From Anaeromyxobacter diazotrophicus (GTDB lineage: Bacteria; Myxococcota; Myxococcia; Myxococcales; Anaeromyxobacteraceae), in contig NZ_BJTG01000001.1 of assembly GCF_013340205.1 (NCBI RefSeq), positions 1 through 64,000 on the forward strand: DNA of 64,000 nt, read 5' to 3'. How positions within the stretch are numbered: position 1 is the first letter of the stretch; every line of letters begins with the position of its first letter. A program made the position numbers and the translations under genes. Shown here in pieces: positions 744-59,526 of this stretch. The notes under the pieces were generated by a model that made no database searches, was not told where the DNA came from, and saw nothing but the letters and a program-made list of their open reading frames with translations.

Positions 744-3700
744 ATGGAACGGACGCTGGGGCTGGGCCGGGTGGCGGTGGTCGATCACGGCGAGAGCGCG
801 CGACGGGTGCTGCGCGCCGTGCGCGAGCTGGGGCGCGCCGGGGCGGTGGTGGCCGTCCACGATCCGCGCGACCGGCCGGGGCGCTTCATCCGGGAAGCCG
901 ACGAGTCGATCGAGGCGACCGGCGGGCCGGAGGAGCTCCTGCGGGCCTCCCGCGCCGAGAGCGCCTGGCTCGGACCGGCCAGTTCCGCCGAGCGGCTGGC
1001 GTTCGCGGAGGCGTGCCAGCACCTCGGTGTCCGGCACCTCGGCCCGCCGCTGGAGGCGCTCCGGCGGCTCGCGGCGCCAGGCGGGCTGGACCGGCTGGCC
1101 GGGCAGCTAGGCGTCGAGCGGGGCACGCTCGCCGACGCCCCTCCCGGGCACCACCTGGTGGAGGTGGTGGTAGCGCGCGACGCGCGCGGCGGCGCCTGGG
1201 CGCTCGGGGTCGGCGACGCCTCCCTGCGGCTCGGCGAGCTGACGCTCCTCGCCGAGTGCCCGTCCCCGGCGCTCACCCCCGCGGGCGACGGTCTCGCGCG
1301 CGACCTCGGCGTCCGCGCCGCGGCCGCCGCGGGTTGGGTCGGCGTCGCCGCCGTCCAGCTCCTCGTCGATCCGCACACGCGCCGCTGGGCGCTGGCCGGC
1401 CTCGAGCCCTTCGCGGAGTCCGCGCCCGCCGTCGAGGCGTTGTCCGGCACCGACCTGGTAGGCCTCGCGCTGCGCCTCGCCGCGGGCGACGTGCTGGAGG
1501 AGGCGCCCGCCCCCCTCCACGGCCACGCCTTCGCGGCGCGCCTCGCCGCGCGCGCGCCAGGAGAGGAGGCGGCCCGCCCCGGCCGCGTGCTCCTCCTGCG
1601 GCTCCCCTCCGGCCTGGGCGTGCGCGCCGACGCCGCGCTCGACGAGGGGGAGCGCGCGCCGCCGGGCCGAGGCGTGCTCGCCACGCTCGTCTCCCGCGGC
1701 GCGACGCGCCTCGAGGCGCTCGGCCGGCTCGAGCGGGCGCTGGCCGAGGCCGACGTGCTGCTGCGCGGCAGCGGGAGCAACAAGGCCTGGCTGCTCGCGC
1801 TCTGCGCCACGCCCGCCGTCCGCGCGGGCGAGGCCGGGCTGGGCGAGGTCGCCGCGCTCGCCGCGGGCGCGCCGCTGGTCGCGCCCCGGCCCGAGGCCGC
1901 GCTCCTCGCCGCCGCGGTCGAGGCGTACGAGACCGAGCTCGACCTCGAGCGGGCGCGCTTCCTGGCCGAGGCGCGCCGCGGTCGCCCGCGGGTCGGCCCG
2001 TCCTCCGGACGCGCCATCGAGCTGCGCCACGCCGGCGCCCGGCACCGCTTCCAGGTGCTGCAGATCGCGCCGCGGCTCTACCAGGTGGCGCCTCAGGGCG
2101 GCGGACCGGTCGAGGTGCGGGTCGACCGGCTCGGCCGGCTCGAGCGGCGGCTCGCATGGGCGGGCCAGCGCGCCCGCGTGCTCCTCGCCAGCGACGGCCT
2201 CGACCAGGTGCTGCAGGTCGACGGCGTGCCGCACCGCGTGGCGCGGGAGCCGGCCGGCCTGGTCGTCTCGCCCATGCCGGCGGTGGTGGTGGCCATCGCG
2301 GTCGAGCCCGGCCAGGAGGTCGCCGCCGGCGAGCCGCTCGCGCGCCTCGAGTCGATGAAGGTGGAGACCCAGATCACCTCGCCCGAGGCGGGCGTCGTGC
2401 GCGAGGTGCTGGTGGCCGTGAACGGCCAGGTCGACGCCGGCGCGCCGCTGCTCCGGCTCGAGCCGCTGCGCAGCGGCGCGGAGCCGACCGCCCCGGCGCT
2501 CGCGCTGCCCCCGCCGCCGCCGGCCCCCGCCGGCGCGCGCGAGCGGTGGGTGGCCGCGCTCCACCAGCTCCGGCGGCTGCTGCTCGGCTTCGACGTGGCC
2601 GCGGCCGACGCGCGGCGGCTCGCCGCCGGCTGGCGTGAGCTCGCCGCGGCCGCGCCCGCCGCCGACCCCGAGGTGCTCGAGCTCGAGGAGGAGGCGCTGC
2701 GGGCCTTCGCCGATCTGCAGTCGCTCTACAGCCGCGTCCGGCCCCCGGCCGCCGACGGCGGCAAGCCGCCGCTCGAGGAGCTCTGGCGCTACCTGCACGA
2801 GCCGGAGGCGGGCGGCGGCGGGCTGTCGACCGCCTTCGTCGCGCTCCTCGAGCGCGCGCTGGCGCACTACGGCGCGACGCTCGAGTCCACGGGGCGGGCG
2901 CTCTCGCTGGCGCTCCTGCGCCTGCAGAAGGGGCACGAGCGCGCCGACGAGCAGGTGGCGCCCATCCTCGGCCTGCTGGAGCGCAGGCTGGCCGAGCATC
3001 CCCCGCGCGGCCTCGCCGGCGAGGGGGCGCGCGCGTTGCTCGAGCGGCTGGTGGCGCTCGGGGACGAGCGCTTCCCGCCCCTCGCCGACCTCGCGCGCGA
3101 GGTCCGCTACCGCCGCCTCGACCAGCCCGCGCTGGAGGAGGCGCGCCGGGCGGCGTACGCCCAGGCCGAGGCCGACGTGGCGCGGCTGCCGGCGGCCTGC
3201 GGCGATCCGGCCGAGCGGGAGCGGCTCATCACCCGACTGGTCGAGGCGAGCCAGGCCATGGCGACGCTCCTCGTCTCGAGGATGGCCACCGCCGCGCCCG
3301 CCCCGCGCGCGGCGCTGGTCGAGACCTTGCTCCGCCGGTTCTACCGGGTCCGCCCGCTCGGGAAGGTCGCGATCCGTGAGGCGGACGGCCAGCCCTGCGC
3401 CACCGCCGACTACCAGCGGAACGGCGAGGAGTTCCGCGTCGCCGTCACCTGCGCGCCCGCCGACGGCGCTGCGGCGGCGGCGGCGCGGCTGGCGCGGCTC
3501 CAGGCCGAGGTGCCCGCCGGACGGGAGCTGGTGGCGGAGCTCTACCTCTGGCGCGACGCGGCCGCCGAGCCGGACGACGCCCTCGTGGAGCCGCTGCGCG
3601 CGGCGGTGGCCGCGGCGGGGTTCTTGCCCGGGCTGCGGCGCGTCTCGGTGATGGTGACGCTCCCGGCGGAAGGGCTCGGCGCCCGCAGCCAGCGTCACTT

Positions 3701-6038
3701 CACCTTCCGCCCGGAGCCCGGCGGAGCGCTCGCCGAGGACCGCCGCTACCGCGGCGTGCACCCCATGCTGTTCGAGCGCATGCAGCTGCAGCGGCTCGCG
3801 CGCTTCGAGCTGACGCAGCTCCCGGCGGTCGAGGACGTCTACCTGTTCCACGCGCGGGCGCAGGCGAACCCCAAGGACGAGCGGCTCTTCGCCATGGCCG
3901 AGGTGCGCGACGTCACCGCGGTGCGCGACGCGAGCGGGCGGCTCACCCAGCTCCCCGCCTTCGAGCGGATGTTCCACGAGGCGCTGGCCGGCATGCGCCG
4001 GTTCCAGGCGCGGCGTCCGCCCGGGCAGCGCCTCGAGTGGAACCGGATCCTGCTCACGGTGAGCCCGCCGCTCCCCGTCACCCGCGAGGAGGCGGAGCGC
4101 GTCGCCGAGCGGCTCGCCCCCGCCGCCGCCGGCGCCGGCCTCGAGATGGCGCTCGTCGACGCCCGCCTCCCCGACCCGGCCACCGGCGAGCTGCGGCAGA
4201 CGCTGCTGCGCGTCATCGCCCGCGACGGGCAGGGCGTGGCGCTGCGGTGGGACGAGCCCACCGACCGGCCGCTCGAGCCGATGGGCGAGTACCAGCAGAA
4301 GGTCGTGCAGCTCCGCCGGCGCGGGCTCGTCCACCCCTTCGAGCTGCTGCGGATGTGGGCGCCCGCCGAGCCACACGCCGGGATCCCGCGCGGCGAGTTC
4401 CTCGAGTACGACCTCGACGAGCGGCAGCGGCTCGTCCCCGTCCACCGCGGCCCGGGCCAGAACACCGCCAACGTGGTGGTGGGTGTCGTGAAGAGCTTCA
4501 CCGAACGCTATCCGGAGGGCATGCAGCGGGTGGTCGTGCTCGGCGATCCCGGGCGCGAGATGGGCTCGGTGGCGGAGCCGGAGTGCCGCCGGATCGCCGC
4601 CGCCCTCGACCTGGCGGAGCAGCTCGGGGTGCCGCTCGAGTGGTTCGAGGTGTGCGCGGGGGCCAAGATCTCGATGACCACCGGCACCGAGAACATGGAC
4701 TGGGTCTCGCGCGTGCTGCGCCGGATCATCGAGTTCACCCAAGGAGGCGGCGAGATCGACGTGGTCGTGATGGGCATCACCGTCGGCGCCCAGCCCTACT
4801 GGAACGCCGAGGCCACCATGCTCATGCACACGAAGGGCGTCCTCATCATGGCGCCCGGGAGCTCGATGGTGCTCACCGGCAAGCAGGCCCTCGAGTACTC
4901 GGGCTCGGTGTCGGCGGAGGACAACGAGGGCATCGGGGGGTACGACCGCATCATGGGCCCGAACGGCCAGGCGCAGTACCAGGCGCGCAGCGTGCCGGAG
5001 GCGCTCCAGCTCCTGCTGCGGCACCACGAGCACGCCTACCGGGCGCCCGGCGAGCGCTTCCCGCGCCAGGCGCGGACCGGCGACCCGCGCGACCGCGACG
5101 TGCGCCCGTACCCGCACGGCCCGGAGGGCGGCGCCGGCTTCGAGACGGTGGGCGACGTCTTCAGCCAGGAGAAGAACCCGGACCGCAAGAAGCCGTTCGA
5201 GATCCGCCGGGTGATGGCCGCCGTCTCCGACCAGGACCACCCGCCGCTCGAGCGCTGGAAGGACCTGCGCGGCGGCGACACCGCGGTGGTCTGGGACGCC
5301 CACCTGGGCGGCTGGCCGGTCTGCCTGGTCGGGATCCAGTCGCGCCCGCTGCCGCGGCTCGAGTTCGTGCCGGCCGACGGCCCCGAGGTGTGGTCGGCGG
5401 GGACCCTCTTCCCGCAGTCGTCGAAGAAGATCGCGCGCGCGGTGAGCTCCGCCAGCGGCAACCGCCCGCTGGTGGTGCTCGCGAACCTGTCGGGGTTCGA
5501 CGGCTCGCCCGAGTCGATGCGGCGCCTGCAGCTCGAGTACGGCGCCGAGATCGGCCGGGCGGTCGTGAACTTCCAGGGCCCCATCGTCTTCTGCGTGGTC
5601 TCGCGGTACCACGGCGGCGCCTTCGTGGTCTTCGCGAAGACGCTGCGCGAGGAGATGGAGATCGCCGCGGTGGAGGGCGCGCGCGCCTCGGTCATCGGCG
5701 GCGCGCCGGCGGCGGCGGTGGTCTTCGCCCGCGAGGTGGAGACGCGCACCCGCAAGGACCCGCGGGTGGCCGAGGCGGAGCGCGCCGCCCAGGCGGGCGG
5801 GGCGGCCCGGGCGCGGCTGGCCGAGGTCGTCGCGCGCGTCCGCTCGGAGAAGCTGGGCGAGGTGGGCGAGGAGTTCGACCGCGTGCACAGCGTCGAGCGC
5901 GCGCTCGAGGTCGGCTCACTCGACCGGATCATCGCGGCGCGCGATCTGCGGCCCTACCTCGTCGGCGCGGTGGAGCGCGGGATGGCGCGCGCGGCCGCCG
6001 GGCCGGCGGGGCCGCCGGCTACGCCGCCCTCACGATGA
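744..6038 (+). CDS. Multidomain acetyl-CoA carboxylase-type protein with degenerate biotin carboxylase domain
   Basis: 1764 residues in the order biotin carboxylase-like, biotinyl, ACC central and carboxyltransferase, the layout of eukaryotic acetyl-CoA carboxylase. Biotinyl lysine is Lys539 in E-S-M-K-V-E. Residues about 590-1240 resemble the ACC central region. About 1250-1665 carry both carboxyltransferase halves, with GAKISM and a later NLSGFDGSPE motif matching the acyl-CoA/biotin pockets. The N-terminal ~420 residues still follow the biotin carboxylase fold, but the ATP-grasp lid with its glycine-rich loop is missing and the Glu-x-Asn metal ligands are replaced (LAGLEPF where FIEMN is expected). 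ATP-dependent carboxylation of its own biotin is therefore unlikely; a separate carboxylase may supply it. The start at 744 is preceded by a G-rich site; earlier starts would translate repeats. The 3' end overlaps the next, convergent gene by 20 bp. Confidence 0.85.
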   Translation: MERTLGLGRVAVVDHGESARRVLRAVRELGRAGAVVAVHDPRDRPGRFIREADESIEATGGPEELLRASRAESAWLGPASSAERLAFAEACQHLGVRHLGPPLEALRRLAAPGGLDRLAGQLGVERGTLADAPPGHHLVEVVVARDARGGAWALGVGDASLRLGELTLLAECPSPALTPAGDGLARDLGVRAAAAAGWVGVAAVQLLVDPHTRRWALAGLEPFAESAPAVEALSGTDLVGLALRLAAGDVLEEAPAPLHGHAFAARLAARAPGEEAARPGRVLLLRLPSGLGVRADAALDEGERAPPGRGVLATLVSRGATRLEALGRLERALAEADVLLRGSGSNKAWLLALCATPAVRAGEAGLGEVAALAAGAPLVAPRPEAALLAAAVEAYETELDLERARFLAEARRGRPRVGPSSGRAIELRHAGARHRFQVLQIAPRLYQVAPQGGGPVEVRVDRLGRLERRLAWAGQRARVLLASDGLDQVLQVDGVPHRVAREPAGLVVSPMPAVVVAIAVEPGQEVAAGEPLARLESMKVETQITSPEAGVVREVLVAVNGQVDAGAPLLRLEPLRSGAEPTAPALALPPPPPAPAGARERWVAALHQLRRLLLGFDVAAADARRLAAGWRELAAAAPAADPEVLELEEEALRAFADLQSLYSRVRPPAADGGKPPLEELWRYLHEPEAGGGGLSTAFVALLERALAHYGATLESTGRALSLALLRLQKGHERADEQVAPILGLLERRLAEHPPRGLAGEGARALLERLVALGDERFPPLADLAREVRYRRLDQPALEEARRAAYAQAEADVARLPAACGDPAERERLITRLVEASQAMATLLVSRMATAAPAPRAALVETLLRRFYRVRPLGKVAIREADGQPCATADYQRNGEEFRVAVTCAPADGAAAAAARLARLQAEVPAGRELVAELYLWRDAAAEPDDALVEPLRAAVAAAGFLPGLRRVSVMVTLPAEGLGARSQRHFTFRPEPGGALAEDRRYRGVHPMLFERMQLQRLARFELTQLPAVEDVYLFHARAQANPKDERLFAMAEVRDVTAVRDASGRLTQLPAFERMFHEALAGMRRFQARRPPGQRLEWNRILLTVSPPLPVTREEAERVAERLAPAAAGAGLEMALVDARLPDPATGELRQTLLRVIARDGQGVALRWDEPTDRPLEPMGEYQQKVVQLRRRGLVHPFELLRMWAPAEPHAGIPRGEFLEYDLDERQRLVPVHRGPGQNTANVVVGVVKSFTERYPEGMQRVVVLGDPGREMGSVAEPECRRIAAALDLAEQLGVPLEWFEVCAGAKISMTTGTENMDWVSRVLRRIIEFTQGGGEIDVVVMGITVGAQPYWNAEATMLMHTKGVLIMAPGSSMVLTGKQALEYSGSVSAEDNEGIGGYDRIMGPNGQAQYQARSVPEALQLLLRHHEHAYRAPGERFPRQARTGDPRDRDVRPYPHGPEGGAGFETVGDVFSQEKNPDRKKPFEIRRVMAAVSDQDHPPLERWKDLRGGDTAVVWDAHLGGWPVCLVGIQSRPLPRLEFVPADGPEVWSAGTLFPQSSKKIARAVSSASGNRPLVVLANLSGFDGSPESMRRLQLEYGAEIGRAVVNFQGPIVFCVVSRYHGGAFVVFAKTLREEMEIAAVEGARASVIGGAPAAAVVFAREVETRTRKDPRVAEAERAAQAGGAARARLAEVVARVRSEKLGEVGEEFDRVHSVERALEVGSLDRIIAARDLRPYLVGAVERGMARAAAGPAGPPATPPSR

Positions 6039-7139: not shown

Positions 7140-9173
7140 ATGGACTTCGCCTTCCACCCCGGCCCCGAGGACGGGGCCACCCGCGCCCGGCGCGGCACGC
7201 TCGTCACGCCGCACGGCCGCGTCGAGACGCCCGCCTTCATGCCGGTCGGCACCCGCGCCACCGTCACCGGCCTCACCCCCGCCGACGTGCGCGCCGCCGG
7301 CGCGACCATGATCCTCGGCAACACCTACCACCTGCTGCTCCGGCCCGGCCCCGAGGCGATGCGGCACTTCGGCGGCCTGCACAGGTTCATGGGCTGGGAC
7401 GGCCCCATCCTGACCGACTCGGGCGGCTTCCAGATCTTCTCGCTGGCGGCCGACCGGACGGTCACCGAGGAGGGGGCGCGGTTCCGCAGCTACGTGGACG
7501 CGCGCCGGCTCGACCTCAGCCCGGAGCGGTCGATCGAGGTGCAGACCGCGCTCGGCTCCGACGTGATGATGGTGCTCGACGTGTGCCTGCCCTCCACCGC
7601 CCCCGAGGCGGCGGTGCGCGAGGCGATGGAGCGCACCCACCGCTGGGCGCTGCGGAGCCTGGCGGCGCGCACCGACCGCTCGCAGGCGCTCTTCGCGATC
7701 GTGCAGGGCGGGCTCGACCCGTCGCTGCGCGCCGCCTCCGCGCGCTTCCTCACCAGCCACCCCTTCGACGGGTTCGCCATCGGCGGGCTGGCGGTGGGCG
7801 ACACCCGCGCGCAGCGCCGCGACATCGTCGGGTGGTCGGCGGAGCTCCTGCCGCGCGATCGCCCGCGCTACCTCATGGGCGTCGGCACGCCGCCCGACAT
7901 CCTGGAGGCGGTGGCGCAGGGCGTCGACCTGTTCGACTGCGTCATCCCCACCAACCTCGCCTGGCAGGGCACCGCGTTCACCTCCACCGGGCGGGTCCGG
8001 GTCACGCGCAGCGAGTACCGCCTCTCCGACGAGCCGCTCGACCGCGCCTGCGCCTGCCCCACCTGCGCGCTGCACGCGCGCGGGTACCTGCACCACCTCA
8101 TGAAGTGCCAGGAGCCGCTCGGGCCGCGCCTCCTCGCCATCCACAACCTCCACCACTACCTCGGGCTCATGCGCGGCGCGCGCGCCGCCATCGAGGCGGG
8201 CCGGTACGGCGCGTTCCTGCGCGCGACGCTCGCGGCCATCGACCGGCACGAGCACGACGCCACCGGCCGTTCGCCCGGGCGGAGAGCGCCCGCGCCCGCC
8301 CCGGCGCCGGGCGCCGAGGAGGGGTCCGATCGCCCGGGCACGGAGGCCGGTGGACCCGGCGAGGCGCGCTTCGCCATCGTCGACACCTCCAGCGGCGCGC
8401 CGGCCGTCCTCGACCGCGAGGTGGGGGAGGTCATGCACCCGGTCATCGGCGCCGCGGCCGAGTCGGAGCAGCTCTACGTCGCCCAGTCCCGGCTGCGGGA
8501 GCGCCTGGCCGAGGAGGGGCCGCCGCTCGTGCTCTTCGACGTCGGGCTCGGCGCGGGCTCCAACGCCCTCGCCGCGATCCGGACCGCGCGCGCCGCGCCG
8601 CCCGGCGGGCGGGGGCTCCTCGTCGTCAGCTTCGAGCGCGACCTGGGCGCCCTCGCGCTCGCGACCAGCGACGCGGGCGCGGCGCGGCTCGGCACCGCGC
8701 GGGAGGACCTCCTCGCGGCGCGCGCCCTGCTCGCCTCCGGCCGGCACGAGGAGGCGCGGGTGAGCTGGCGGCTCGCCGCGGGCGAGGCGCTGGCCGCGCT
8801 CCGCGCCGAGGCGGCGCGCGCCGACCTCGTCTTCTGGGACCCGTACTCGCCGCGCCACGACGGGGCGCTCTGGTCGGTGGAGGCGTTCTCGACCCTGCGT
8901 ACGCGCTGCGCCGCCCGGGCGGCCCTCTACACCTACAGCGCGGCGACCAAGGTCCGCACCGCGCTGCTCCTGGCCGGCTTCTGCGTCGGGGTCGGCGATC
9001 CCTCGGGCCCCAAGGACGAGACCACCGCCGCCGCCCTCTCCTGCGACGATCTGGACCGCCCCCTCGAGGGCGGGTTCGTGGACCGGGTGGCGCGCTCCTC
9101 CGACCCATGGCCGGAGGACGCGCCGGAGGACGCCCTGGCGCGGCTGCGCGCGCATCCCCAGTTCGCCCGGTGA
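7140..9173 (+). CDS. tgt: Queuine tRNA-ribosyltransferase fused to an MnmC-like methyltransferase domain
   Basis: 677 residues. Residues 1-372 are a complete bacterial tRNA-guanine transglycosylase, which swaps guanine-34 for the queuosine precursor preQ1. Catalytic Asp93 (DSGGFQ) and nucleophile Asp266 (FDCVIPTN) are present, and the zinc site is Cys304, Cys306, Cys309 and His335. After a Pro/Ala-rich linker (about 373-420) comes an extra domain of about 255 residues with an SAM-binding glycine motif (DVGLGAGSN) and WDPYSPR followed by TYSAATKVR. These match the methyltransferase part of MnmC (DUF752 family), which acts on U34 of other tRNAs. The FAD oxidase half of MnmC is absent. Both parts would target wobble position 34, so the fusion makes functional sense, but the methyltransferase substrate is inferred. 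Confidence 0.88.
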   Translation: MDFAFHPGPEDGATRARRGTLVTPHGRVETPAFMPVGTRATVTGLTPADVRAAGATMILGNTYHLLLRPGPEAMRHFGGLHRFMGWDGPILTDSGGFQIFSLAADRTVTEEGARFRSYVDARRLDLSPERSIEVQTALGSDVMMVLDVCLPSTAPEAAVREAMERTHRWALRSLAARTDRSQALFAIVQGGLDPSLRAASARFLTSHPFDGFAIGGLAVGDTRAQRRDIVGWSAELLPRDRPRYLMGVGTPPDILEAVAQGVDLFDCVIPTNLAWQGTAFTSTGRVRVTRSEYRLSDEPLDRACACPTCALHARGYLHHLMKCQEPLGPRLLAIHNLHHYLGLMRGARAAIEAGRYGAFLRATLAAIDRHEHDATGRSPGRRAPAPAPAPGAEEGSDRPGTEAGGPGEARFAIVDTSSGAPAVLDREVGEVMHPVIGAAAESEQLYVAQSRLRERLAEEGPPLVLFDVGLGAGSNALAAIRTARAAPPGGRGLLVVSFERDLGALALATSDAGAARLGTAREDLLAARALLASGRHEEARVSWRLAAGEALAALRAEAARADLVFWDPYSPRHDGALWSVEAFSTLRTRCAARAALYTYSAATKVRTALLLAGFCVGVGDPSGPKDETTAAALSCDDLDRPLEGGFVDRVARSSDPWPEDAPEDALARLRAHPQFAR

Positions 9174-38639: not shown

Positions 38640-38715
38640 CGCTCCCGGCGTGAATTCCGCGCGGGAGCGGGACCGGAATACACGCTTCCGCCCCTTCAGC
38701 CAAAGCGGAAAGCGA
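38640..38715. promoter_or_regulatory. Dyad-symmetry region upstream of the hydrogenase promoter (candidate activator sites)
   Basis: Two imperfect dyads lie 70-145 bp before the -24 element. CGCTCCCG at 38640-38647 pairs with CGGGAGCG at 38662-38669. CGCTTCCGC at about 38683-38691 pairs with GCGGAAAGCG at about 38706-38715, with one bulge. NtrC-type activators bind dyads in this range, so these are candidate HoxA sites. The distance and symmetry are the only evidence. Confidence 0.35.
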
Positions 38716-38784
38716 CCTGCCGGGCGTGTTTCCACCGTAACTCGCAAGCACTTGAATTTACTCCGTGGCTCCGCCGTGGACGGA

Positions 38785-38800
38785 CGGCACACCTCGTGCT
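38785..38800 (+). promoter_or_regulatory. Sigma-54 promoter of the hydrogenase operon
   Basis: CGGCACA-N4-GTGCT places GG at 38786-38787 and GC at 38798-38799, the exact -24/-12 spacing, and matches 5 of 6 bases of TGGCAC and 4 of 5 of TTGCW. Expected transcription start is about 38811, 76 bp before the hybO start. An NtrC-family activator is encoded divergently. The 302-bp gap 38585-38886 holds no gene. Confidence 0.65.
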
Positions 38801-38886
38801 GCATCCCCGTCCGGGGAATGGATCACTCGCAACCGCTCGCTCGGCGTCGGCCACGGGCCACCTGGGCGGGCCTCACGGAGAACCTC

Positions 38887-39978
38887 ATGAGCGAGCTGGA
38901 AACCAAGGGCGTTTCGCGCCGCGACTTCCTGAAGGTGGCCACCATGGCCGCCGGCGCGGTCGGCCTGCCGGCCTGGGCCGGCGAGAAGATGGCGGAGAAG
39001 GCCGCCTCGAGCGCCAAGCCGCCCGTCATCTGGCTGCACTTCCAGGAGTGCACCGGCTGCTCGGAGTCGCTGCTCCGCACGAGCGCCCCCGACGTCGCCC
39101 AGCTCATCCTGGGCCTCATCTCGCTCGACTACCACGAGACGCTCATGGTGCCGTCCGGCTACCAGGCGGAGAAGTCGCTCGAGGAGTCGATGGAGAAGAA
39201 CGCCGGGAAGTACGTGCTCGTGGTCGAGGGCGCCATCCCGACGAAGGAGGACGGCATCTACTGCCGCGTCGGCGGCAAGACCGCCATGGAGACGCTGAAG
39301 AAGGTCGCCGCCAAGGCGGGCGCCATCGTCTCCATCGGCTCCTGCGCCTCCTGGGGCGGCATCCCCTCGGCCGACCCGAACCCCACGGGCGCGGTGGGCG
39401 TGAACAAGCTCGTCACCGACAAGCCGGTGGTGAACATCCCCGGCTGCCCGGCGAACCCGTACAACCTGCTCGGCACCGTGCTCCAGTTCGCGACCTTCGG
39501 CACGCTGCCGGCGCTCGACGACCTGGGCCGCCCGAAGTTCGCCTACGCCCGCACCATCCACGAGGACTGCCCGCGCCGGCCGCACTTCGACGCCGGCCGC
39601 TTCGCGCAGAAGTACGGCGACGAGGGCCACAAGGCCGGCTACTGCCTCTACAAGCTCGGCTGCAAGGGCCCGGCGACGCACGCCAACTGCTCGCTCAACC
39701 ACTTCGTCGAGGTCCCCGGCGCCTGGCCCATCGGCATCGGCCACCCGTGCTTCGGCTGCACCGAGCAGAAGCTCGGCTTCCGCATGCCGCTGCACGACAC
39801 GGTCGACGTCGAGCGCCCGACCGCCCCGGGCACCTACCCGGCCATCCGCCCCGACCACAGCGTCGTGACGCCGGCCTCGGTGGGCGTGGCGGGCCTCATC
39901 GTCGGCGGGCTGGTCGGCGCCGGCTACATGGCCTCGAAGAAGCTCTCGAACGACACCGAGAAGCAGGGGAAGGAGTAG
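38887..39978 (+). CDS. hybO: Respiratory [NiFe] hydrogenase small subunit (HybO-like)
   Basis: 363 residues with GGAGAA before the ATG. The twin-arginine signal S-R-R-D-F-L-K (residues 10-16) exports the folded dimer. Proximal cluster ligands start at Cys55/Cys58 (ECTGCSE), followed by GSCASWGG, NIPGCPANP, HEDCPRRPHF for the distal cluster, and GHPCFGCTE. A C-terminal membrane helix (about 330-350, GVAGLIVGGLVGAGY) anchors it. It carries electrons from the NiFe site to HybA/HybB. First gene of hybOABC, the order of E. coli hydrogenase-2. Confidence 0.94.
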   Translation: MSELETKGVSRRDFLKVATMAAGAVGLPAWAGEKMAEKAASSAKPPVIWLHFQECTGCSESLLRTSAPDVAQLILGLISLDYHETLMVPSGYQAEKSLEESMEKNAGKYVLVVEGAIPTKEDGIYCRVGGKTAMETLKKVAAKAGAIVSIGSCASWGGIPSADPNPTGAVGVNKLVTDKPVVNIPGCPANPYNLLGTVLQFATFGTLPALDDLGRPKFAYARTIHEDCPRRPHFDAGRFAQKYGDEGHKAGYCLYKLGCKGPATHANCSLNHFVEVPGAWPIGIGHPCFGCTEQKLGFRMPLHDTVDVERPTAPGTYPAIRPDHSVVTPASVGVAGLIVGGLVGAGYMASKKLSNDTEKQGKE

Positions 39979-39982
39979 CGCG

Positions 39983-40930
39983 ATGCGCATCTCCCGTCGA
40001 AGCCTGCTGAAGGGGGCGGTGGCGGCCGGGGCCGCGACCGCCGTCGTCGGCCGGGCCGAAGCCCGCGAGAAGCGGGAGGTCGAGGCGGAAGCGGTCGGCA
40101 TGCTGTACGACTCGACCCTCTGCATCGGCTGCCGCGCCTGCGTCACGAAGTGCAAGGAGGCGAACGGCCTCCCCTACGACCGCAGCGCGGACGGCCTCTA
40201 CGACCAGCCCGACGACCTGAACGGCAACACCAAGAACGTCATCAAGGTGCTCGCTTCCGAGGGCGGCCAGTACGCCTTCATGAAGCAGCAGTGCATGCAC
40301 TGCGTCGACCCGTCCTGCGTCTCGGTCTGCATGATGGGCGCCCTCCACAAGGAGGGCCAGGGCACCCGCCACCACGACGGCGAGGTGCGCGGCAGCGGCA
40401 TCGTCCTCTACGACAAGAACACCTGCGTCGGCTGCCGCTACTGCCAGATCGCCTGCCCGTACCTCATCCCGAAGTTCGAGTGGACGAAGGCGTTCCCGCT
40501 CATCGTGAAGTGCGAGCTGTGCCGGCACCGGGCAGATCCCAAGAAGGCGGGCCCGCTGGCGGTGGCGAACCCTGCCTGCTGCGAGGTGTGCCCGCGCGAG
40601 GCGGTGGTCTACGGCAAGCGCGCGGAGCTGCTCGCCGAGGCGAAGCGCCGCCTGGCGGCGAACCCGCAGAAGTACAACGGCCACGTCTACGGCGAGGTCG
40701 AGGGCGGCGGGACGCAGGTGCTGTACCTCGCCGCGAAGGGCGTCGAGTTCAAGCAGCTCGGCCTGCCCGAGCTGCCGGAGGAGTCGCAGGCCTACTTCTC
40801 CGAGCACGTCTCGCACATGCCGTACCTGAACGGCATCACGCCCATCGCGCTCTACGCGGCGGCCGCGTTCGTGGTGCGCCGGAACCGGAAGAAGGAAGAG
40901 GCGGCCGAGCACCATGGGGAGGGCAAGTAG
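39983..40930 (+). CDS. hybA: Hydrogenase-2-type ferredoxin subunit (HybA-like)
   Basis: 315 residues. A twin-arginine signal (R-I-S-R-R-S-L-L-K-G) is followed by four cysteine clusters for [4Fe-4S] centres: CIGCRACVTKC from Cys47, CMHCVDPSCVSVC, CVGCRYCQIAC, and CELC with a later CCEVCP. A C-terminal membrane helix (ITPIALYAAAAFVV) follows. HybA passes electrons between the small subunit and the quinone-reactive HybB. It starts 4 bp after hybO and abuts hybB without a gap. Confidence 0.92.
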   Translation: MRISRRSLLKGAVAAGAATAVVGRAEAREKREVEAEAVGMLYDSTLCIGCRACVTKCKEANGLPYDRSADGLYDQPDDLNGNTKNVIKVLASEGGQYAFMKQQCMHCVDPSCVSVCMMGALHKEGQGTRHHDGEVRGSGIVLYDKNTCVGCRYCQIACPYLIPKFEWTKAFPLIVKCELCRHRADPKKAGPLAVANPACCEVCPREAVVYGKRAELLAEAKRRLAANPQKYNGHVYGEVEGGGTQVLYLAAKGVEFKQLGLPELPEESQAYFSEHVSHMPYLNGITPIALYAAAAFVVRRNRKKEEAAEHHGEGK

Positions 40931-42154
40931 ATGAGCGGCCACGATCATCCGAAGGCCATCGGCGGCAAGCTGTTCAGCCCGCTGATGAACGTCTGCCTGG
41001 GTCTCTTCGCGCTGTCGGTCGCGGTCATGGCCTACCGGTTCTTCGCCGGCGTCGGGCCGGTGAGCGCCATGTCCGACGGCTACGCCTGGGGCATCTGGGA
41101 GCCGGTCAACGTCGTCGTCTTCACCGGCATCGGCGCGGGCGCCTACTCGACGGGCCTGCTCTGCTACCTCCTCAACCAGGGCAAGTACCACCCGCTGGTC
41201 CGCCCGGCGGTGCTGCTCGGCGCCATCGCGTACTCGCTGGCGGGCGCCTCCATCCTCATCGCGCTGGGCCGGTACTGGAACGTCTACTGGCTGTTCCTGC
41301 CCGGCGTGTGGAACCTCGGCTCGGTGCTGCTCGAGGTCGCCGCCTGCGTGATGACCTACGTGATGGTGCTGTGGATCGAGGTGCTCCCGGCCGTCCTCGA
41401 GGGCGCCGCCGACAGCAAGCACCCGTTCTGGGCGAAGATCGGCAAGAAGTGGGGGCCGGTGCTGGCGAAGGCCATGCCCTACTTCATCGCCGCGGCGATG
41501 ATCCTGCCCACCATGCACCAGAGCTCGCTCGGCGGCCTCATGCTCATCGCCGGGCCGAAGCTGAACCCGCTCTGGCACACCGCGCTCCTGCCCACCCTGG
41601 CCCTCATCTCCTGCCTCGCCATGGGCTACGGCGCGGTGGTGGCGCTGACGAACATCCTGCACATGACCTGGAACGCGAAGGCCGACCAGCGGCTCTTCGC
41701 CGACCTCTCCAAGGTGAACGGCGGCCTGCTCTTCCTGTTCGTCGTGGTCCGCCTGGTCGACATCGCCGCCCACGGCAAGCTCAAGTACCTGGGGGTCTTC
41801 GACTTCCACCTGTTCTTCTTCCTGCTCGAGACGGCGCTCTTCCTCGTCCCGGCCTTCATGTTCTTCTCGAAGAAGGTCCAGCAGAACCGGGGCAAGCTCC
41901 TCGGCGCCGCGCTGCTCTCCATCCTCGCCGGCGCGCTGTGGCGCATCGACGCCTACCTCACGGCCTACAACGGCGGGGATGGCTTCGAGTACATGCCGTC
42001 CCTCGGCGAGATCGCCGTCACCGTCGGAATGGCGGCCGTCGGGGTCGCCGTGTTCCTCGTCGTCGCTCGGTTCTTCCCGGTCGTGGTCGTCGATGACGCC
42101 CGCGATCACTCCCATGTCGGCGCGGGTCAGGTTCAGGCCGCTGCCGGTCGATAG
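40931..42154 (+). CDS. hybB: NrfD/PsrC-type quinone-reactive membrane subunit (HybB-like)
   Basis: 407 residues with about 10 membrane helices and no haem-ligand pattern, typical of the NrfD/PsrC family rather than cytochrome b. Conserved W-G-I-W-E-P-V-N near the first helices and MHQSSLGGLMLI are family signatures. It should exchange electrons with menaquinone and may translocate protons, which lets Hyd-2 work in both directions. It starts directly after the hybA stop and lies 10 bp before hybC. Confidence 0.9.
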   Translation: MSGHDHPKAIGGKLFSPLMNVCLGLFALSVAVMAYRFFAGVGPVSAMSDGYAWGIWEPVNVVVFTGIGAGAYSTGLLCYLLNQGKYHPLVRPAVLLGAIAYSLAGASILIALGRYWNVYWLFLPGVWNLGSVLLEVAACVMTYVMVLWIEVLPAVLEGAADSKHPFWAKIGKKWGPVLAKAMPYFIAAAMILPTMHQSSLGGLMLIAGPKLNPLWHTALLPTLALISCLAMGYGAVVALTNILHMTWNAKADQRLFADLSKVNGGLLFLFVVVRLVDIAAHGKLKYLGVFDFHLFFFLLETALFLVPAFMFFSKKVQQNRGKLLGAALLSILAGALWRIDAYLTAYNGGDGFEYMPSLGEIAVTVGMAAVGVAVFLVVARFFPVVVVDDARDHSHVGAGQVQAAAGR

Positions 42155-42164
42155 AGGTGCGTAA

Positions 42165-43883
42165 ATGAGCCAGAGAGTCACCATCGACCCCGTCACCCGC
42201 ATCGAGGGCCACCTCCGCATCGACCTCGAGGTGGAGGGGAACAAGGTCAAGAACGCCTGGTCGTCGGGCACCATGTGGCGCGGGATCGAGACCATCCTGC
42301 AGGGTCGCGATCCGCGCGAGGCCTGGATCTTCGCCCAGCGCATCTGCGGCGTGTGCACCACCGTGCACGCCATGGCGTCGGTGCGCTCGGTCGAGAACGC
42401 GCTCGACCTCGAAGTGCCGATGAACGCGCAGTACATCCGCAACATCATCGTCGCGGCGCACTGCCTGCACGATCACATCGTCCACTTCTACCATCTGTCC
42501 GCGCTGGACTGGGTGGACGTGACGAGCGCGCTCAAGGCCGATCCGGCCGCGGCGTCGAAGCTCGCCGAGTCGCTCTCCCCGTGGAAGCACAACTCCACCC
42601 GGGACCTGGCGGCGGTGAAGGAGAAGCTGGCCGGCTTCGTCGCGGGCGGCCAGCTCGGCATCTTCCAGAACGGCTACTGGGGCCACCCGGCGATGCGGCT
42701 GCCGCCGGAGGTGAACCTGCTCGCCGTCTCGCACTACCTGCAGGCGCTCGAGTACCAGCGCAAGGCGCTGCAGGTGGTGGCGATCCTCGGCTCGAAGACG
42801 CCGAACATCCAGAACCTGGCCGTGGGCGGCGTGGCCAACGCCATCAACCTCGACAACCCGGCCACGCTCAACATGCAGAAGCTGTATCAGGTGAAGGAGC
42901 TGCTCGACGAGGTGTCCGCGTTCGTCCAGCAGGCGTACTTCCCCGACGTGGCGGCGGTGGGCGGCCTGTACGCCGAGTGGACCAAGTACGGCGCCGGCGT
43001 CACCGACTACCTGTCGGTCCCGGAGCTGCCGCTCGACACGAAGGGCACGAAGTTCGACATGCCCGGCGGCACGATCATCGCCGGCCAGACGAAGCCGATC
43101 GGCGGCTTCGGCGACGCGTACTTCCGCGACGGCGTGACCGAGTCGTCGAAGTACGCCTACTACGCCGACTCCGGCTCGCCGCTCCACCCGTGGAAGGGCG
43201 AGACCAAGCCCCACTACACCGGCGACTGGAAGGCCGAGACCCCCGCCCCCGACAAGTACACCTGGGTGAAGGCGCCCCGCTTCAACGGGAAGCCCATGCA
43301 GGTCGGCCCGCTGGCGCAGGTCATGTACGCGCTCAAGGCCGGCGACCCGCTCACCACCAAGTACGCGACGGCCATGCTCAACACGGCCGGCGCGGTGGCG
43401 AAGACGAAGCTCACCCCGGCCGTCCTCGAGTCCACCGTCGGCCGCATCGCCGCCCGCGCCATCCGCGCGGCGGTGATGAGCGAGCTCGCCCAGAAGCACT
43501 GGAAGCTGCTGGTCGAGAACATCGGCAAGGGCGACACCACCATCTTCAACGACCCGATGCCGAAGCTGGCCAAGGGCGAGTACCAGGGCGTCGGCTTCCA
43601 CGAGGCGCCGCGCGGGACGCTCTCGCACTGGACGGTCATCAAGAACGGCAAGCTCGCCAACTACCAGGCGGTCGTGCCCTCGACCTGGAACGCCGGCCCC
43701 CGCGCCAAGGACGACAAGGACCTCGGCCCGTACGAGAAGTCGCTCGTCGGCAACCCCATCGCCGACCCGAAGAAGCCGCTCGAGGCGCTCCGCACGGTCC
43801 ACTCGTTCGACCCGTGCCTCGCCTGCGCCATCCACACCGTGGACGGCGAGGGGCAGGAGATCGCCCGCGTGAAGGTGCTGTAA
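42165..43883 (+). CDS. hybC: Respiratory [NiFe] hydrogenase large subunit (HybC-like)
   Basis: 572 residues. The NiFe site ligands are Cys61/Cys64 (QRICGVCTTVH) and Cys551/Cys554 (DPCLACAIH, His557). Fifteen residues follow the His, ending in ARVKVL; this matches the C-terminal peptide of E. coli HybC, which a maturation protease cuts off after nickel insertion. The protein has no signal and is exported with HybO. It oxidises H2 in the periplasm for menaquinone-linked anaerobic respiration. hyp maturation genes are not in the window. Confidence 0.94.
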   Translation: MSQRVTIDPVTRIEGHLRIDLEVEGNKVKNAWSSGTMWRGIETILQGRDPREAWIFAQRICGVCTTVHAMASVRSVENALDLEVPMNAQYIRNIIVAAHCLHDHIVHFYHLSALDWVDVTSALKADPAAASKLAESLSPWKHNSTRDLAAVKEKLAGFVAGGQLGIFQNGYWGHPAMRLPPEVNLLAVSHYLQALEYQRKALQVVAILGSKTPNIQNLAVGGVANAINLDNPATLNMQKLYQVKELLDEVSAFVQQAYFPDVAAVGGLYAEWTKYGAGVTDYLSVPELPLDTKGTKFDMPGGTIIAGQTKPIGGFGDAYFRDGVTESSKYAYYADSGSPLHPWKGETKPHYTGDWKAETPAPDKYTWVKAPRFNGKPMQVGPLAQVMYALKAGDPLTTKYATAMLNTAGAVAKTKLTPAVLESTVGRIAARAIRAAVMSELAQKHWKLLVENIGKGDTTIFNDPMPKLAKGEYQGVGFHEAPRGTLSHWTVIKNGKLANYQAVVPSTWNAGPRAKDDKDLGPYEKSLVGNPIADPKKPLEALRTVHSFDPCLACAIHTVDGEGQEIARVKVL

Positions 43884-52165: not shown

Positions 52166-55100
52166 TCAGGCGAGGAGGACGAGGAGGTCCTCCTTCTCGA
52201 CCAGGGCGCCCTCCGGGAAGCGGACCTCCGCCACCCGCCCGGCCGCCTTCGCCTTCACGTTCGTCTCCATCTTCATGGCCTCGGTCACGAGCAGGACCGT
52301 GCCCGCCGCCACCTCCTCGCCCGGCTTCACGCACAGCTTCACGATCTTGCCGGGCATGGGCGCGCCGACCTGCCGCGGGTCGGCCCGATCGGCCTTGGGC
52401 CGCGCCGCCCCGTCGCGCGCCGCCGAGAGGTCGCGCACGATGACGTTGCGCCCCTCCCCGTTCAGCTCGAAGAAGGCCTCGCGCGTGCCGTCCTTGGCGA
52501 GCGGCCCCACCAGCACGAGCTTCACGATGAGCGTCTTGCCCGGCTCGATCTCGACGCTGGTCTCCTGCCCCGGCTCGAGCCCGTACAGGAAGTGAGGCGT
52601 CGGCAGCACCGAGGTGTCGGAGTAGTCGGCGCGGTGCCGCTCCAGCTCCGCCCAGACGCTCGGGTAGAGGAGCCAGCTCACGAGCTGCTCGTCGGAGACG
52701 CGCCGCCCGGCGCGCTCCGAGGCCTTCCGCCGCTCCGCCTCGAGGTCGGCGGGCTCGAGGAGCTCTCCCGGCCGGACGTGGATGGGCTCCTCGCCCTTCA
52801 GCACGAGCTGCTGCAGCGCCGGGGGCCAGCCGCCGTGCGGCTGCCCCAGCATGCCCTTGAACATCCCCACCACCGAGGCCGGGAAGGCGAGGTCCTGACC
52901 CGGCCGGAAGAGGTCCTCCGGCTCGAGGTCGTTCTTCACCAGGAACATGGCCATGTCGCCCACGACCTTGGACGAGGGCGTGACCTTGACGATGTCGCCG
53001 AAGAGGAGGTTCACCTTCCGGTACATCTCCTTGCACTCCTCCCACCGGTCGAGGAGGCCCAGCCCCGCCACCTGCGGCTTGAAGTTGGAGTACTGGCCGC
53101 CCGGGATCTCGTGGCGGTAGACCTCGGCGGTGCCGCTCCGGAGGCCCGACTCGAAGGGCGCGTAGTGCTCGCGCACCGTCTCCCAGTACGCGGCGAGCTG
53201 CTGCAGCCCGCCCTGGTCGAGGCCGGTGTCCCACGGCGTGCCCCGCAGCACCGCCACCAGCGTGTCGAGCGACGGCTGCGAGGTGAGCCCGGAGAGCGGC
53301 GAGAGCGCCGCGTCGACGATGTCCACCCCGGCCTGGGCCGCCTCGAGCAGCGTGGCGCCCGCGTAGCCGGAGGTGTCGTGGGTGTGGAGGTGGACCGGGA
53401 TCCCGAGCTCGTCCTTGAGCGCCTTGACGAGCTTGCGGGCGGCGAACGGCTTGAGGAGCCCCGCCATGTCCTTCACGCCCAGCACGTGGGCGCCCATGCG
53501 CTCCAGCTCCTTCGCGAGCGCCACGTAGTAGGTGAGCGGGTACTTGTCGCGCCTCGGGTCGGTGAGGTCGCCCGTGTAGCACATGGCGCCCTCGCAGAGC
53601 TTCCCGCTCCGCCGCACCGCCCCCATGGCGACCGCCATGCCCTTCGTCCAGTTGAGCGCGTCGAAGACGCGGAACACGTCCACGCCGGCCTGGGCGGCGG
53701 TGGCGACGAACGCCTCCACCACGTTGTCGGGGTAGTTGGTGTAGCCGACCGCGTTCGAGCCGCGGAGCAGCATCTGCAGGCAGACGTTGGGGACCGCCTC
53801 CGAGAGGCGGTGCAGCCGCTCCCACGGGTCCTCCTTGAGGAACCGCATGCAGACGTCGAAGGTGGCGCCGCCCCAGGCCTCGAGCGAGAAGAGGCCGGGC
53901 GCCAGCCGCGCCGTGGCGGGCGCGACGCGCAAGAGGTCGTAGGAGCGGACCCGGGTGGCGAGGAGCGACTGGTGCGCGTCGCGCATGGTGGTGTCGGTGA
54001 CGAGCAGCCGCTCCTGCGCCAGCACCCAGCGCGCGAGCGCCTCCGGCCCCTGCTCGCGGAGGAGGTCGCGCGTCCCCTTCGCCGGGGCCGCCGCCAGGTC
54101 CACCGCCGGCAGGCGCGGCTCGCGCAGCTTCGAGGGCGCGAGCTTCGACGGGACGCCGGGCGAGCCGTTCACCACCACCTCGCCCAGGAACTGGAGCAGC
54201 TTCGAGCCGCGGTCCTGGCGCCGGCGAGCCTCGCGCAGCTCCGGGTGCTCGTCGATGAAGGAGGTGTCGCAGCGGCCGGCGAGGAAGTCCGGGTGCGTGA
54301 TCACGTTCTCGAGGAACGGGATGTTGGTCTTCACGCCCCGGATGCGGAACTCCTGCAGGCACCGGTGCATGATGCGCGAGGCCTCGTCGAGCGTGAGGCC
54401 CCAGCTGCTCACCTTGACGAGCAGCGAGTCGTAGTGCGGCGTGATGACCGCGCCGGTGAAGGCGCTGCCGGCGTCGAGCCGGACCCCGGCGCCGCCCGGC
54501 GAGCGGTAGGCCTTGAGCGTGCCGGTGTCGGGCATGAACCCGTTCTGCGGGTCCTCGGTCGTGACGCGGCACTGGATGGCGTGGCCGCGCGCCTCGATGG
54601 CGCGCTGGTCGGGCATGCCCAGCTCCGCCAGGGTGGCGCCCTCGGCGATGCGGAGCTGGGCCTGGACCAGGTTCCGCCCGGTGATCATCTCGGTCACCGT
54701 GTGCTCGACCTGGATGCGCGGGTTCATCTCGATGAAGTAGAAGCGCCCCTCGCGATCGAGGAGGAACTCGCAGGTCCCGGCCGAGCGGTAGCGCACCAGG
54801 CCCGCGATCTTCAGCGCCGCCGCGCAGATCGCCTCCCGCAGCGCGGGGGCGAGCCCCGGCGCCGGCGCCTGCTCCACCACCTTCTGGTGGCGCCGCTGGA
54901 TGGAGCAGTCGCGCTCGAAGAAGTGGACCAGGTGGCCGTGCGCGTCCCCCAGGACCTGCACCTCGATGTGCTTCGGGCGCTCGAGGAAGCGCTCCAGGAA
55001 GACGGTGGCGTTGCCGAAGGACGCGCGCGCCTCGCTCCGCGCCGAGGCGAGCCCCTCGAGGAGCTCGCGCCGGTCGCGCGCCACGCGCATCCCGCGCCCG

Positions 55101-55624
55101 CCGCCGCCCGCGGCCGCCTTGACGATGAGCGGGTAGCCGTGGGTCTTCGCGAAGAGGAGCGCCTCCTCCTCGTGCGCGATGGGCCCGTCGGTCCCCGGCA
55201 CGACCGGCACCCCCGCCTCCAGGGCGGCCTTCCGCCCCGCCACCTTGTCGCCGAGGCGCCGCTGCTGCTCGGCGGTGGGGCCGACGAAGACCAGCCCGGC
55301 CGCCTCGACGCGCTCCGCGAAGTCCGGGTTCTCCGAGAGGAAGCCGTACCCGGGGTGGATGGCGTCCACGTCCTTCTCGCGCGCCAGGGCGATGAGCTCG
55401 TCGATCCCGAGGTAGGCGTCGATGGGCCCGCGGCCCTTCCCGACGAGGTACGCCTCGTCCGCCTTGTAGCGGTGGAGCGAGAGCCGGTCCTCGTGGGAGT
55501 AGACGGCCACCGTGCCCATGCCGAGCTCGGTGGCTGCGCGGAAGATGCGGATCGCGATCTCGCCGCGGTTCGCGACGAGCACCTTGCGGATCCGGCGGGC
55601 GGGGGTCGGGGCGGTGGGGGGCAC
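52166..55624 (-). CDS. pyc: Pyruvate carboxylase
   Basis: 1152 residues, the normal single-chain length. The N-terminal biotin carboxylase (about 10-460) is intact: VLVANRGEIAIRI, the ATP loop KAAAGGGGRGM, and FIEMNPRIQVEHTVTE. The carboxyltransferase (about 540-820) has TDTTMRDAHQSLLATR, a Lys in VKDMAGLL for carboxybiotin handling, and HLHTHDTSG for the metal site. The biotinyl domain carries Lys1118 in E-A-M-K-M-E-T. It converts pyruvate, ATP and bicarbonate to oxaloacetate. GTG 55624 is favoured over GTG 55630 because GAGG is spaced better. It stands in contrast to the degenerate carboxylase at 744-6038. Confidence 0.95.
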   Translation of the reverse strand: MPPTAPTPARRIRKVLVANRGEIAIRIFRAATELGMGTVAVYSHEDRLSLHRYKADEAYLVGKGRGPIDAYLGIDELIALAREKDVDAIHPGYGFLSENPDFAERVEAAGLVFVGPTAEQQRRLGDKVAGRKAALEAGVPVVPGTDGPIAHEEEALLFAKTHGYPLIVKAAAGGGGRGMRVARDRRELLEGLASARSEARASFGNATVFLERFLERPKHIEVQVLGDAHGHLVHFFERDCSIQRRHQKVVEQAPAPGLAPALREAICAAALKIAGLVRYRSAGTCEFLLDREGRFYFIEMNPRIQVEHTVTEMITGRNLVQAQLRIAEGATLAELGMPDQRAIEARGHAIQCRVTTEDPQNGFMPDTGTLKAYRSPGGAGVRLDAGSAFTGAVITPHYDSLLVKVSSWGLTLDEASRIMHRCLQEFRIRGVKTNIPFLENVITHPDFLAGRCDTSFIDEHPELREARRRQDRGSKLLQFLGEVVVNGSPGVPSKLAPSKLREPRLPAVDLAAAPAKGTRDLLREQGPEALARWVLAQERLLVTDTTMRDAHQSLLATRVRSYDLLRVAPATARLAPGLFSLEAWGGATFDVCMRFLKEDPWERLHRLSEAVPNVCLQMLLRGSNAVGYTNYPDNVVEAFVATAAQAGVDVFRVFDALNWTKGMAVAMGAVRRSGKLCEGAMCYTGDLTDPRRDKYPLTYYVALAKELERMGAHVLGVKDMAGLLKPFAARKLVKALKDELGIPVHLHTHDTSGYAGATLLEAAQAGVDIVDAALSPLSGLTSQPSLDTLVAVLRGTPWDTGLDQGGLQQLAAYWETVREHYAPFESGLRSGTAEVYRHEIPGGQYSNFKPQVAGLGLLDRWEECKEMYRKVNLLFGDIVKVTPSSKVVGDMAMFLVKNDLEPEDLFRPGQDLAFPASVVGMFKGMLGQPHGGWPPALQQLVLKGEEPIHVRPGELLEPADLEAERRKASERAGRRVSDEQLVSWLLYPSVWAELERHRADYSDTSVLPTPHFLYGLEPGQETSVEIEPGKTLIVKLVLVGPLAKDGTREAFFELNGEGRNVIVRDLSAARDGAARPKADRADPRQVGAPMPGKIVKLCVKPGEEVAAGTVLLVTEAMKMETNVKAKAAGRVAEVRFPEGALVEKEDLLVLLA

Positions 55625-57541: not shown

Positions 57542-57542
57542 G

Positions 57543-59384: not shown

Positions 59385-59526
59385 GCCGGGTCGATAACCC
59401 GGCGCGCGCTCACCTGCCGCCCAGGACGGGGATCCGGGCGCCCGCTCGGCCGGCGCCGCCCCGGCCAGGCCGGCGCTGAAGGTGGGTCGCCCCCACCCGG
59501 GTGACTCTGCTAGAAACGGAGGTCCG

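Follow-up and report, generated by a model that had tools for sequence, protein, structure and literature searches.

Domain layout of the window protein

Near the start of the 64,000-nucleotide window (by which we mean the whole stretch of DNA analysed), an open reading frame runs from an ATG at 744 to a stop at 6038 without internal stops. Based on Pfam as well as profile and fold comparison, its product carries biotin carboxylase (BC), BT, biotin carboxyl carrier (BCCP), central region and carboxyltransferase (CT) in this order in a single chain (Table 1). The CPSase_L_D2 match in the BC part comprises only profile positions 94-210 of a profile of length 211; the ACC_central Pfam match lies at residues 963-1122 (3630-4109; 45.5 bits vs a curated cut-off of 23.2), and the structural match of MCC holoenzymes to the model of the window protein extends to residue 498-500. 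A profile made from residues 576-1750 of the window protein and 16 homologues retrieved Chaetomium, yeast and human ACC (E 2.5e-50 to 3e-33), the matched eukaryotic chains being either full-length or central-plus-CT. Given the Pfam order and these profile matches, the eukaryote-type layout is real, and the domain order and central region of eukaryotic multidomain ACC, which the initial annotation had recognized, are borne out by both sequence profile and predicted fold. The BC-BT-BCCP-central-CT order is the same as in the eukaryotic single-chain ACC of yeast (5csl) and human (8xkz); these, however, exceed 2200 aa, whereas the window protein has 1764 aa and what appears to be a dead, lid-less BC.

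Table 1. Features of the ACC-like gene in the window, and the gene run around a second homologue
Feature	Coordinates	Strand	Evidence
Gene for eukaryote-type ACC-like protein with apparently dead BC domain, 1764 aa	744..6038	+	Open frame, Pfam layout
BC N-terminal subdomain, residues 9-106, kept	768..1061	+	Biotin_carb_N, 38.6 bits vs cut-off 25.5
Lid (B-domain) deletion site, residues 107-137	1062..1154	+	Residue counts from GP to E140
ATP-grasp remnant, residues 138-253, catalytic/metal residues gone	1155..1502	+	CPSase_L_D2, site table
BC C-terminal subdomain, residues 265-363, R338 equivalent present	1536..1832	+	Biotin_carb_C, alignment
BT-like region, BC-BCCP interval, about residues 380-500	1881..2243	+	Predicted long helix and beta strands
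Biotin carboxyl carrier domain, residues 507-572, ESMKVE	2262..2459	+	Biotin_lipoyl, 58.4 bits
Lys539 codon, biotin-accepting	2358..2360	+	MK motif invariant in 21/21 aligned homologues
Central region, eukaryotic ACC type, about residues 576-1190	2469..4313	+	Pfam, profile search, fold
Carboxyltransferase, N and C halves, residues 1258-1742	4515..5969	+	Carboxyl_trans, 115.3 bits, conserved motifs
Gene run with apparently dead-BC ACC-like gene	L108:92-11354, G016:C518	-	

Downstream parts of the window hold further genes. A 677-aa frame at 7140-9173 (+) joins a queuine tRNA-ribosyltransferase (TGT, residues 15-365) to a Methyltransf_30 domain (537-632), possibly a fusion of two tRNA-modification enzymes. 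According to Pfam, a NiFe hydrogenase set lies at 38650-43883 (+), with the small subunit at 38650-39978, the large subunit at 42165-43883 and two further frames between the two genes.

Loss of the lid and active site in the BC domain

In the window protein GPPLEAL ends at residue 106 and, as initially annotated, only about 30 residues follow before HHLVEVVV. Counted from GP100-101 to E140 the distance is 38 residues, within the 35-38 found across the nine full proteins of the near clade (see below), vs 99-104 in 11 intact-BC homologues, and the shortened segment is indeed without the glycine-rich ATP loop. For the catalytic, ATP and metal positions we adopted the residue names and roles of AccC. 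At these positions, the window BC is without K116, K159, the GGGG loop, E201, H209, Q233, K238, Q294 and E296, and R338 is present. The claimed absence of the Glu-x-Asn metal ligands also held, since E288 and N290 of the AccC EMN motif are gone, as is R292. The protein scores 79.9 bits on the NCBIfam accC equivalog, below the AccC cut-off of 626.5, and fails to provide the set expected of a catalytically competent BC (lid, glycine loop, K116, K159, K238 and E288/N290/R292). Supported by the lid and catalytic residue loss in alignment with AccC and homologues, the domain, as judged from its sequence, is almost certainly dead, as had been proposed.

Alignment with E. coli AccC and homologues extends the same pattern to the nine full proteins of the near clade. 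Deletion has removed the glycine loop together with K159, E201 and R292, K116 is Pro in 9/9, and H209, Q233, K238, E288, N290, Q294, V295 and E296 are substituted, the alignment beside the deletion being uncertain by a few residues, which affects the calls at K116 and E201 and not the loss itself. A BC domain still working with an altered, lid-less active site could draw on R338, present in 8/9 of these proteins, and on a Glu at the E276 position in 6/9, but with K116, K159, the glycine loop, E201, H209, K238, E288, N290, R292 and E296 gone in 9/9 we find it barely credible.

Distribution among homologues

The CT part was run against 195 Myxococcota genomes with a threshold of E <= 1e-50 and matched in 20 of them: 11 of the 24 genomes of the window's own family, one of a neighbouring family (G029) and eight elsewhere. 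No match at this threshold was obtained in 11 genomes from three other genera of the window's family. The rarity in bacteria that the initial annotation had stressed therefore stands only in relative terms, since about one tenth of the searched Myxococcota genomes match and eukaryote-type ACCs are already published from actinobacteria, namely SACE_4237 of Saccharopolyspora erythraea (PMC6491548).

The near clade comprises 12 genomes whose CT is 78-84% identical to that of the window protein. Its BC is readable in 11, all of them lid-less (11/11), which confirms that the deletion is clade-wide and answers the survey of homologues that had been suggested. Uninterrupted frames are found in 9/9 full copies, the window included, while the G037 copy ends at a contig end, an N run together with a frame change disrupts the G040 copy, and the G029 copy (L104:1254-6044, +) has three broken frames and has apparently lost most of the conserved central segment, so that it is apparently a pseudogene or an assembly error. 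A scan of a genome collection recovered five lid-less relatives, matched along most of their length, from Anaeromyxobacter soli, terrae and oryzae and two MAGs, as well as a sixth match that covers the BC N-terminus only (locus identities: L001=L053, L002=L059, L003=L054, L005=L046, L004=L104). An assembly error or frameshift behind the deletion was considered and rejected, given that all 11 readable near-clade relatives are without the lid, that the junction is in frame and that the independent genomes include five single-contig assemblies (G031, G032, G033, G036 and G041).

Homologues with an intact lid, named initially as a sign of local deletion or assembly error, do exist, but only at greater distance, in other Myxococcota and actinobacteria, and none in the near clade. 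Within the eight other genomes, intact BC copies occur at L047, L048, L051, L055, L062, L063, L065 and L106 and one dead-BC copy at L064, whereas at L050, L057 and L105 the BC lies outside the contig or too little of it inside. Records of a plasmid collection gave five near-full-length matches, of which four were retrieved (L074-L077), all with intact BC. The 11 intact rows used in our counts are L047, L048, L051, L055, L062, L063, L065 and L074-L077, with L106 left out. These four actinobacterial relatives, homodimeric multidomain ACCs, share with the window protein the domain order, the central region, the CT motifs NLSGFDGSPES and SRYHGGA and 62-67% CT identity, but unlike it they have the full lid and all BC catalytic residues (the sequence comparison concerns L074-L077 and not SACE_4237). 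The Tsukamurella plasmid copy, with intact BC (L076:1-9451), adjoins a type I polyketide synthase and a holo-ACP synthase gene.

A second dead-BC homologue

The dead-BC copy L064 (G016:C518) comes from another Myxococcota genome, a fragmented assembly that is 92% complete with 6% contamination. It has 1807 aa and a full-length lid segment of 105 residues, but is without K116, K159, the glycine loop, H209, K238, E276, E288, N290 and R292. Its gene shares 4 bases with a MaoC/mesaconyl-CoA hydratase-like gene, before which lie genes for an HpcH/HpaI lyase, a 2-methylfumaryl-CoA isomerase (TIGR04253, 712.5 bits vs a cut-off of 725) and two family III CoA-transferases (CoA_transf_3). We take this run to resemble the glyoxylate-assimilation half of the 3-hydroxypropionate bi-cycle. 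A link of Anaeromyxobacter to such a module was rejected, as the mesaconyl-CoA isomerase/transferase model matches G016 only among the 195 genomes (E <= 1e-60), and thus the G016 cluster gives nothing direct on Anaeromyxobacter.

Concerning the number of origins of the dead BC, neither the CT nor the central-plus-CT tree resolves how the Anaeromyxobacter clade, the pair L057/L064 and the rows from actinobacteria relate to each other; in one of the two, from which seven short, long-branched or near-duplicate rows were dropped, the one-clade arrangement has an AU p of 0.27. The BC tree joins L064 with the dead clade at a support of only 69/60, L064 being a long branch. Moreover, both carry the same replacement at 10/44 changed sites, vs a shuffle mean of 4.6 (P 0.011), in a shuffle that ignores relatedness.

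Selection on and predicted fold of the BC domain

Over columns spanning residues 6-360, the ratio of BC to CT distance has a median of 3.71 in dead pairs (range 1.13-5.51, n=36), 1.14 in intact pairs (range 0.71-1.51, n=55) and a value of 2.47 for L064 vs the intact rows, although the intact set is more divergent than the dead one and saturation could lower its ratio. Five close pairs gave dN/dS values of 0.10-0.37 in the dead BC; in the central region the values were 0.11-0.29, in CT 0.11-0.19 and in BCCP 0.08-0.38. Based on the distance ratios together with dN/dS, selection on the dead BC is relaxed but still present. The 11 intact rows have 116 invariant BC columns, and 36 of these are retained by 7 or more of the 9 dead rows. 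At what we presume to be the dimer-interface positions (R16, R19, E23, R366 and F363), the dead rows have R16 and R19 in 9/9 and E23 and R366 in 6/9 each; at F363, Pro is found in most of the intact homologues as well.

An AlphaFold2 model of residues 6-575 was built from 17 sequences and reached a mean pLDDT of 89.5; as seven of the input rows have an intact BC, it leans on the intact fold. Its BC (model residues 1-370) matches E. coli BC 2j9g_B with Z 43.0 at 2.3 A over 363 residues, within a template range of 1-446. The model thus predicts the fold of E. coli AccC minus the lid, with the catalytic residues absent as well, and we regard the dead BC as a maintained shell.

BCCP, central region and carboxyltransferase

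The ESMK biotin motif is found in 9/9 full near-clade rows, and in the alignment dead and intact rows share the conserved CT motifs, in agreement with the earlier claim of an intact biotin Lys539 and two intact carboxyltransferase halves. From these motifs, both BCCP and CT look alive. For residues 576-1750 the model is less confident (pLDDT 76.0, pTM 0.60, with poor parts in CT); its best matches are human ACC 8xkz (Z 32.1) and yeast ACC 5csl (Z 31.5), with an rmsd of 7.2 A over 905 and 928 residues, respectively. The CT model also matches the Propionibacterium transcarboxylase 12S subunit (1on3; Z 21.9, 7.4 A, 453 residues), and intact-BC carboxylases match it as well as 12S does.

Other carboxylase genes and gene neighbourhood

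The window genome (4.83 Mb in 17 contigs, listed as 100% complete) contains AccB adjoining AccC (TIGR00531, 173.2 bits, and TIGR00514, 679.1 bits) and AccD (377.9 bits), each above its cut-off, as well as AccA (E 1.8e-142). The stand-alone accC that the initial annotation had proposed to look for is thus present and intact. AccA occurs in 188/195 Myxococcota genomes, including 11/11 Anaeromyxobacteraceae carriers, in all of which AccC is also above the curated cut-off. Replacement of the normal ACC was therefore rejected, and with the four Acc proteins in the same genome, the window protein would be an extra carboxyltransferase and not the sole ACC.

Elsewhere in the genome there are three further BC proteins. 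The window itself encodes a complete pyruvate carboxylase (PRK12999, 1761 bits) at 52166-55597 (-), directly downstream of two 2-oxoacid:ferredoxin oxidoreductase genes (56501-59567, -). In G000:C3 (L066:1086-5979, +), a CT protein is followed by a 998-aa protein whose BC has the catalytic residues and a long insertion. Close to the C-terminus this second protein carries a biotin-type motif, and on accC it scores 148 bits vs a cut-off of 626.5; the two may form an unusual acyl-CoA carboxylase pair.

An operon partner was sought and rejected, since near-clade neighbours are conserved only as synteny of close species. The immediate neighbours examined belong to unrelated families or to no family, and within the near clade no adjoining biotin carboxylase gene is conserved. 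With regard to a membrane or CO2-releasing partner as in biotin decarboxylases, the visible neighbourhoods have no family in common beyond closely related species; as the contig begins 743 bases upstream, the left side of the window gene is not visible.

Possible roles of the protein

As to the biotinylation, dimer role, carboxyl source and substrate of the window protein, we infer the following. The ancestor would have been a bacterial ACC of eukaryote type, in which active-site decay and lid loss turned the BC into a pseudoenzyme; most likely the shell was kept to fix the position of the dimer and of the BT/BCCP arm. Once biotinylated, the BCCP would swing to the CT, where a short acyl-CoA would gain or lose a carboxyl. 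Because the BC of the protein itself would be unable to make carboxybiotin, the carboxyl must come from outside, most likely from the stand-alone biotin carboxylase AccC acting in trans on the tethered BCCP. Taken as a whole, we hold this combination of a BC pseudoenzyme shell with a live BCCP-CT charged by AccC in trans to be about evenly balanced between right and wrong. The adjacent accB and accC and the presence of accD in the window genome speak for charging in trans; on the other side, docking of AccC to this BCCP would have to be assumed, conserved neighbours include no gene for a biotin carboxylase, the G029 copy, from a MAG, is broken, and transcarboxylation fits equally well and needs no partner. 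The partly kept dimer-interface set (E23 and R366 in 6/9 each) counts against the scaffold role, for which the homologue SACE_4237 offers a reason, being active only as a dimer and inactive as a monomer (PMC6491548); it accepts both acetyl-CoA and propionyl-CoA. The Chloroflexus aurantiacus ACC becomes active through an interaction of BC with CT across different chains (PMC11077971), but there BC is live and fused to BCCP, and CT is on separate chains. Shewanella has a multi-domain ACC (PMC11602165) and a biotin-carboxylase phylogeny is published (PMC3199775). In the open-licence literature, where absence is weak evidence, we found no description of a dead BC inside an ACC.

An ATP-free and BC-free acyl-CoA transcarboxylase, in which CT would take the carboxyl from malonyl-CoA (or methylmalonyl-CoA) to biotin and then to propionyl-CoA (or acetyl-CoA), is possible but rather unlikely. 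The Propionibacterium transcarboxylase is a biotin enzyme working without BC, although its acceptor differs, being pyruvate via 5S. From its sequence the window protein appears to combine, as such an enzyme would, an intact BCCP and CT with a dead BC; its CT fold is common to 12S, which is among the structural matches, and L064 adjoins propionyl-CoA/glyoxylate-type genes. However, the Propionibacterium enzyme has separate subunits with neither central region nor BC shell, the CT model fits intact-BC carboxylases equally well, the use of two substrates here would have to be assumed, and the complete ACC and other CT/BC sets in the cell leave no apparent need for it. A fuller version, which we consider doubtful, is a single-chain, ATP-free malonyl-CoA:propionyl-CoA exchanger whose BC died first (L064, lid present), whose lid was deleted later (Anaeromyxobacter) and of which one genome's copy joined a 3-hydroxypropionate-type glyoxylate cluster.

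A decaying relic with no present function is improbable. BC evolves faster than in intact homologues, the G029 copy is broken and 11 genomes from three other genera of the family have no match, but the frames are uninterrupted in all full copies and dN/dS is low in CT, BCCP and BC alike. Slightly less probable still is a malonyl-CoA or methylmalonyl-CoA decarboxylase, in which carboxybiotin derived from an acyl-CoA would be discharged as CO2. Energy-conserving biotin decarboxylases use a membrane subunit. The neighbourhoods examined gave no conserved neighbour, whatever its kind, and it is not evident why a slow side reaction would be selected for. In its favour, the anatomy is the same and biotin decarboxylases have no BC (PMC3199775).

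A pseudo-BC in an otherwise live single-chain ACC would be a natural separation of the two half-reactions. Such a protein would reveal if the role of BC in homodimeric ACCs is solely structural, if charging in trans is possible for a tethered BCCP, and how carboxylases could give rise to transcarboxylases.
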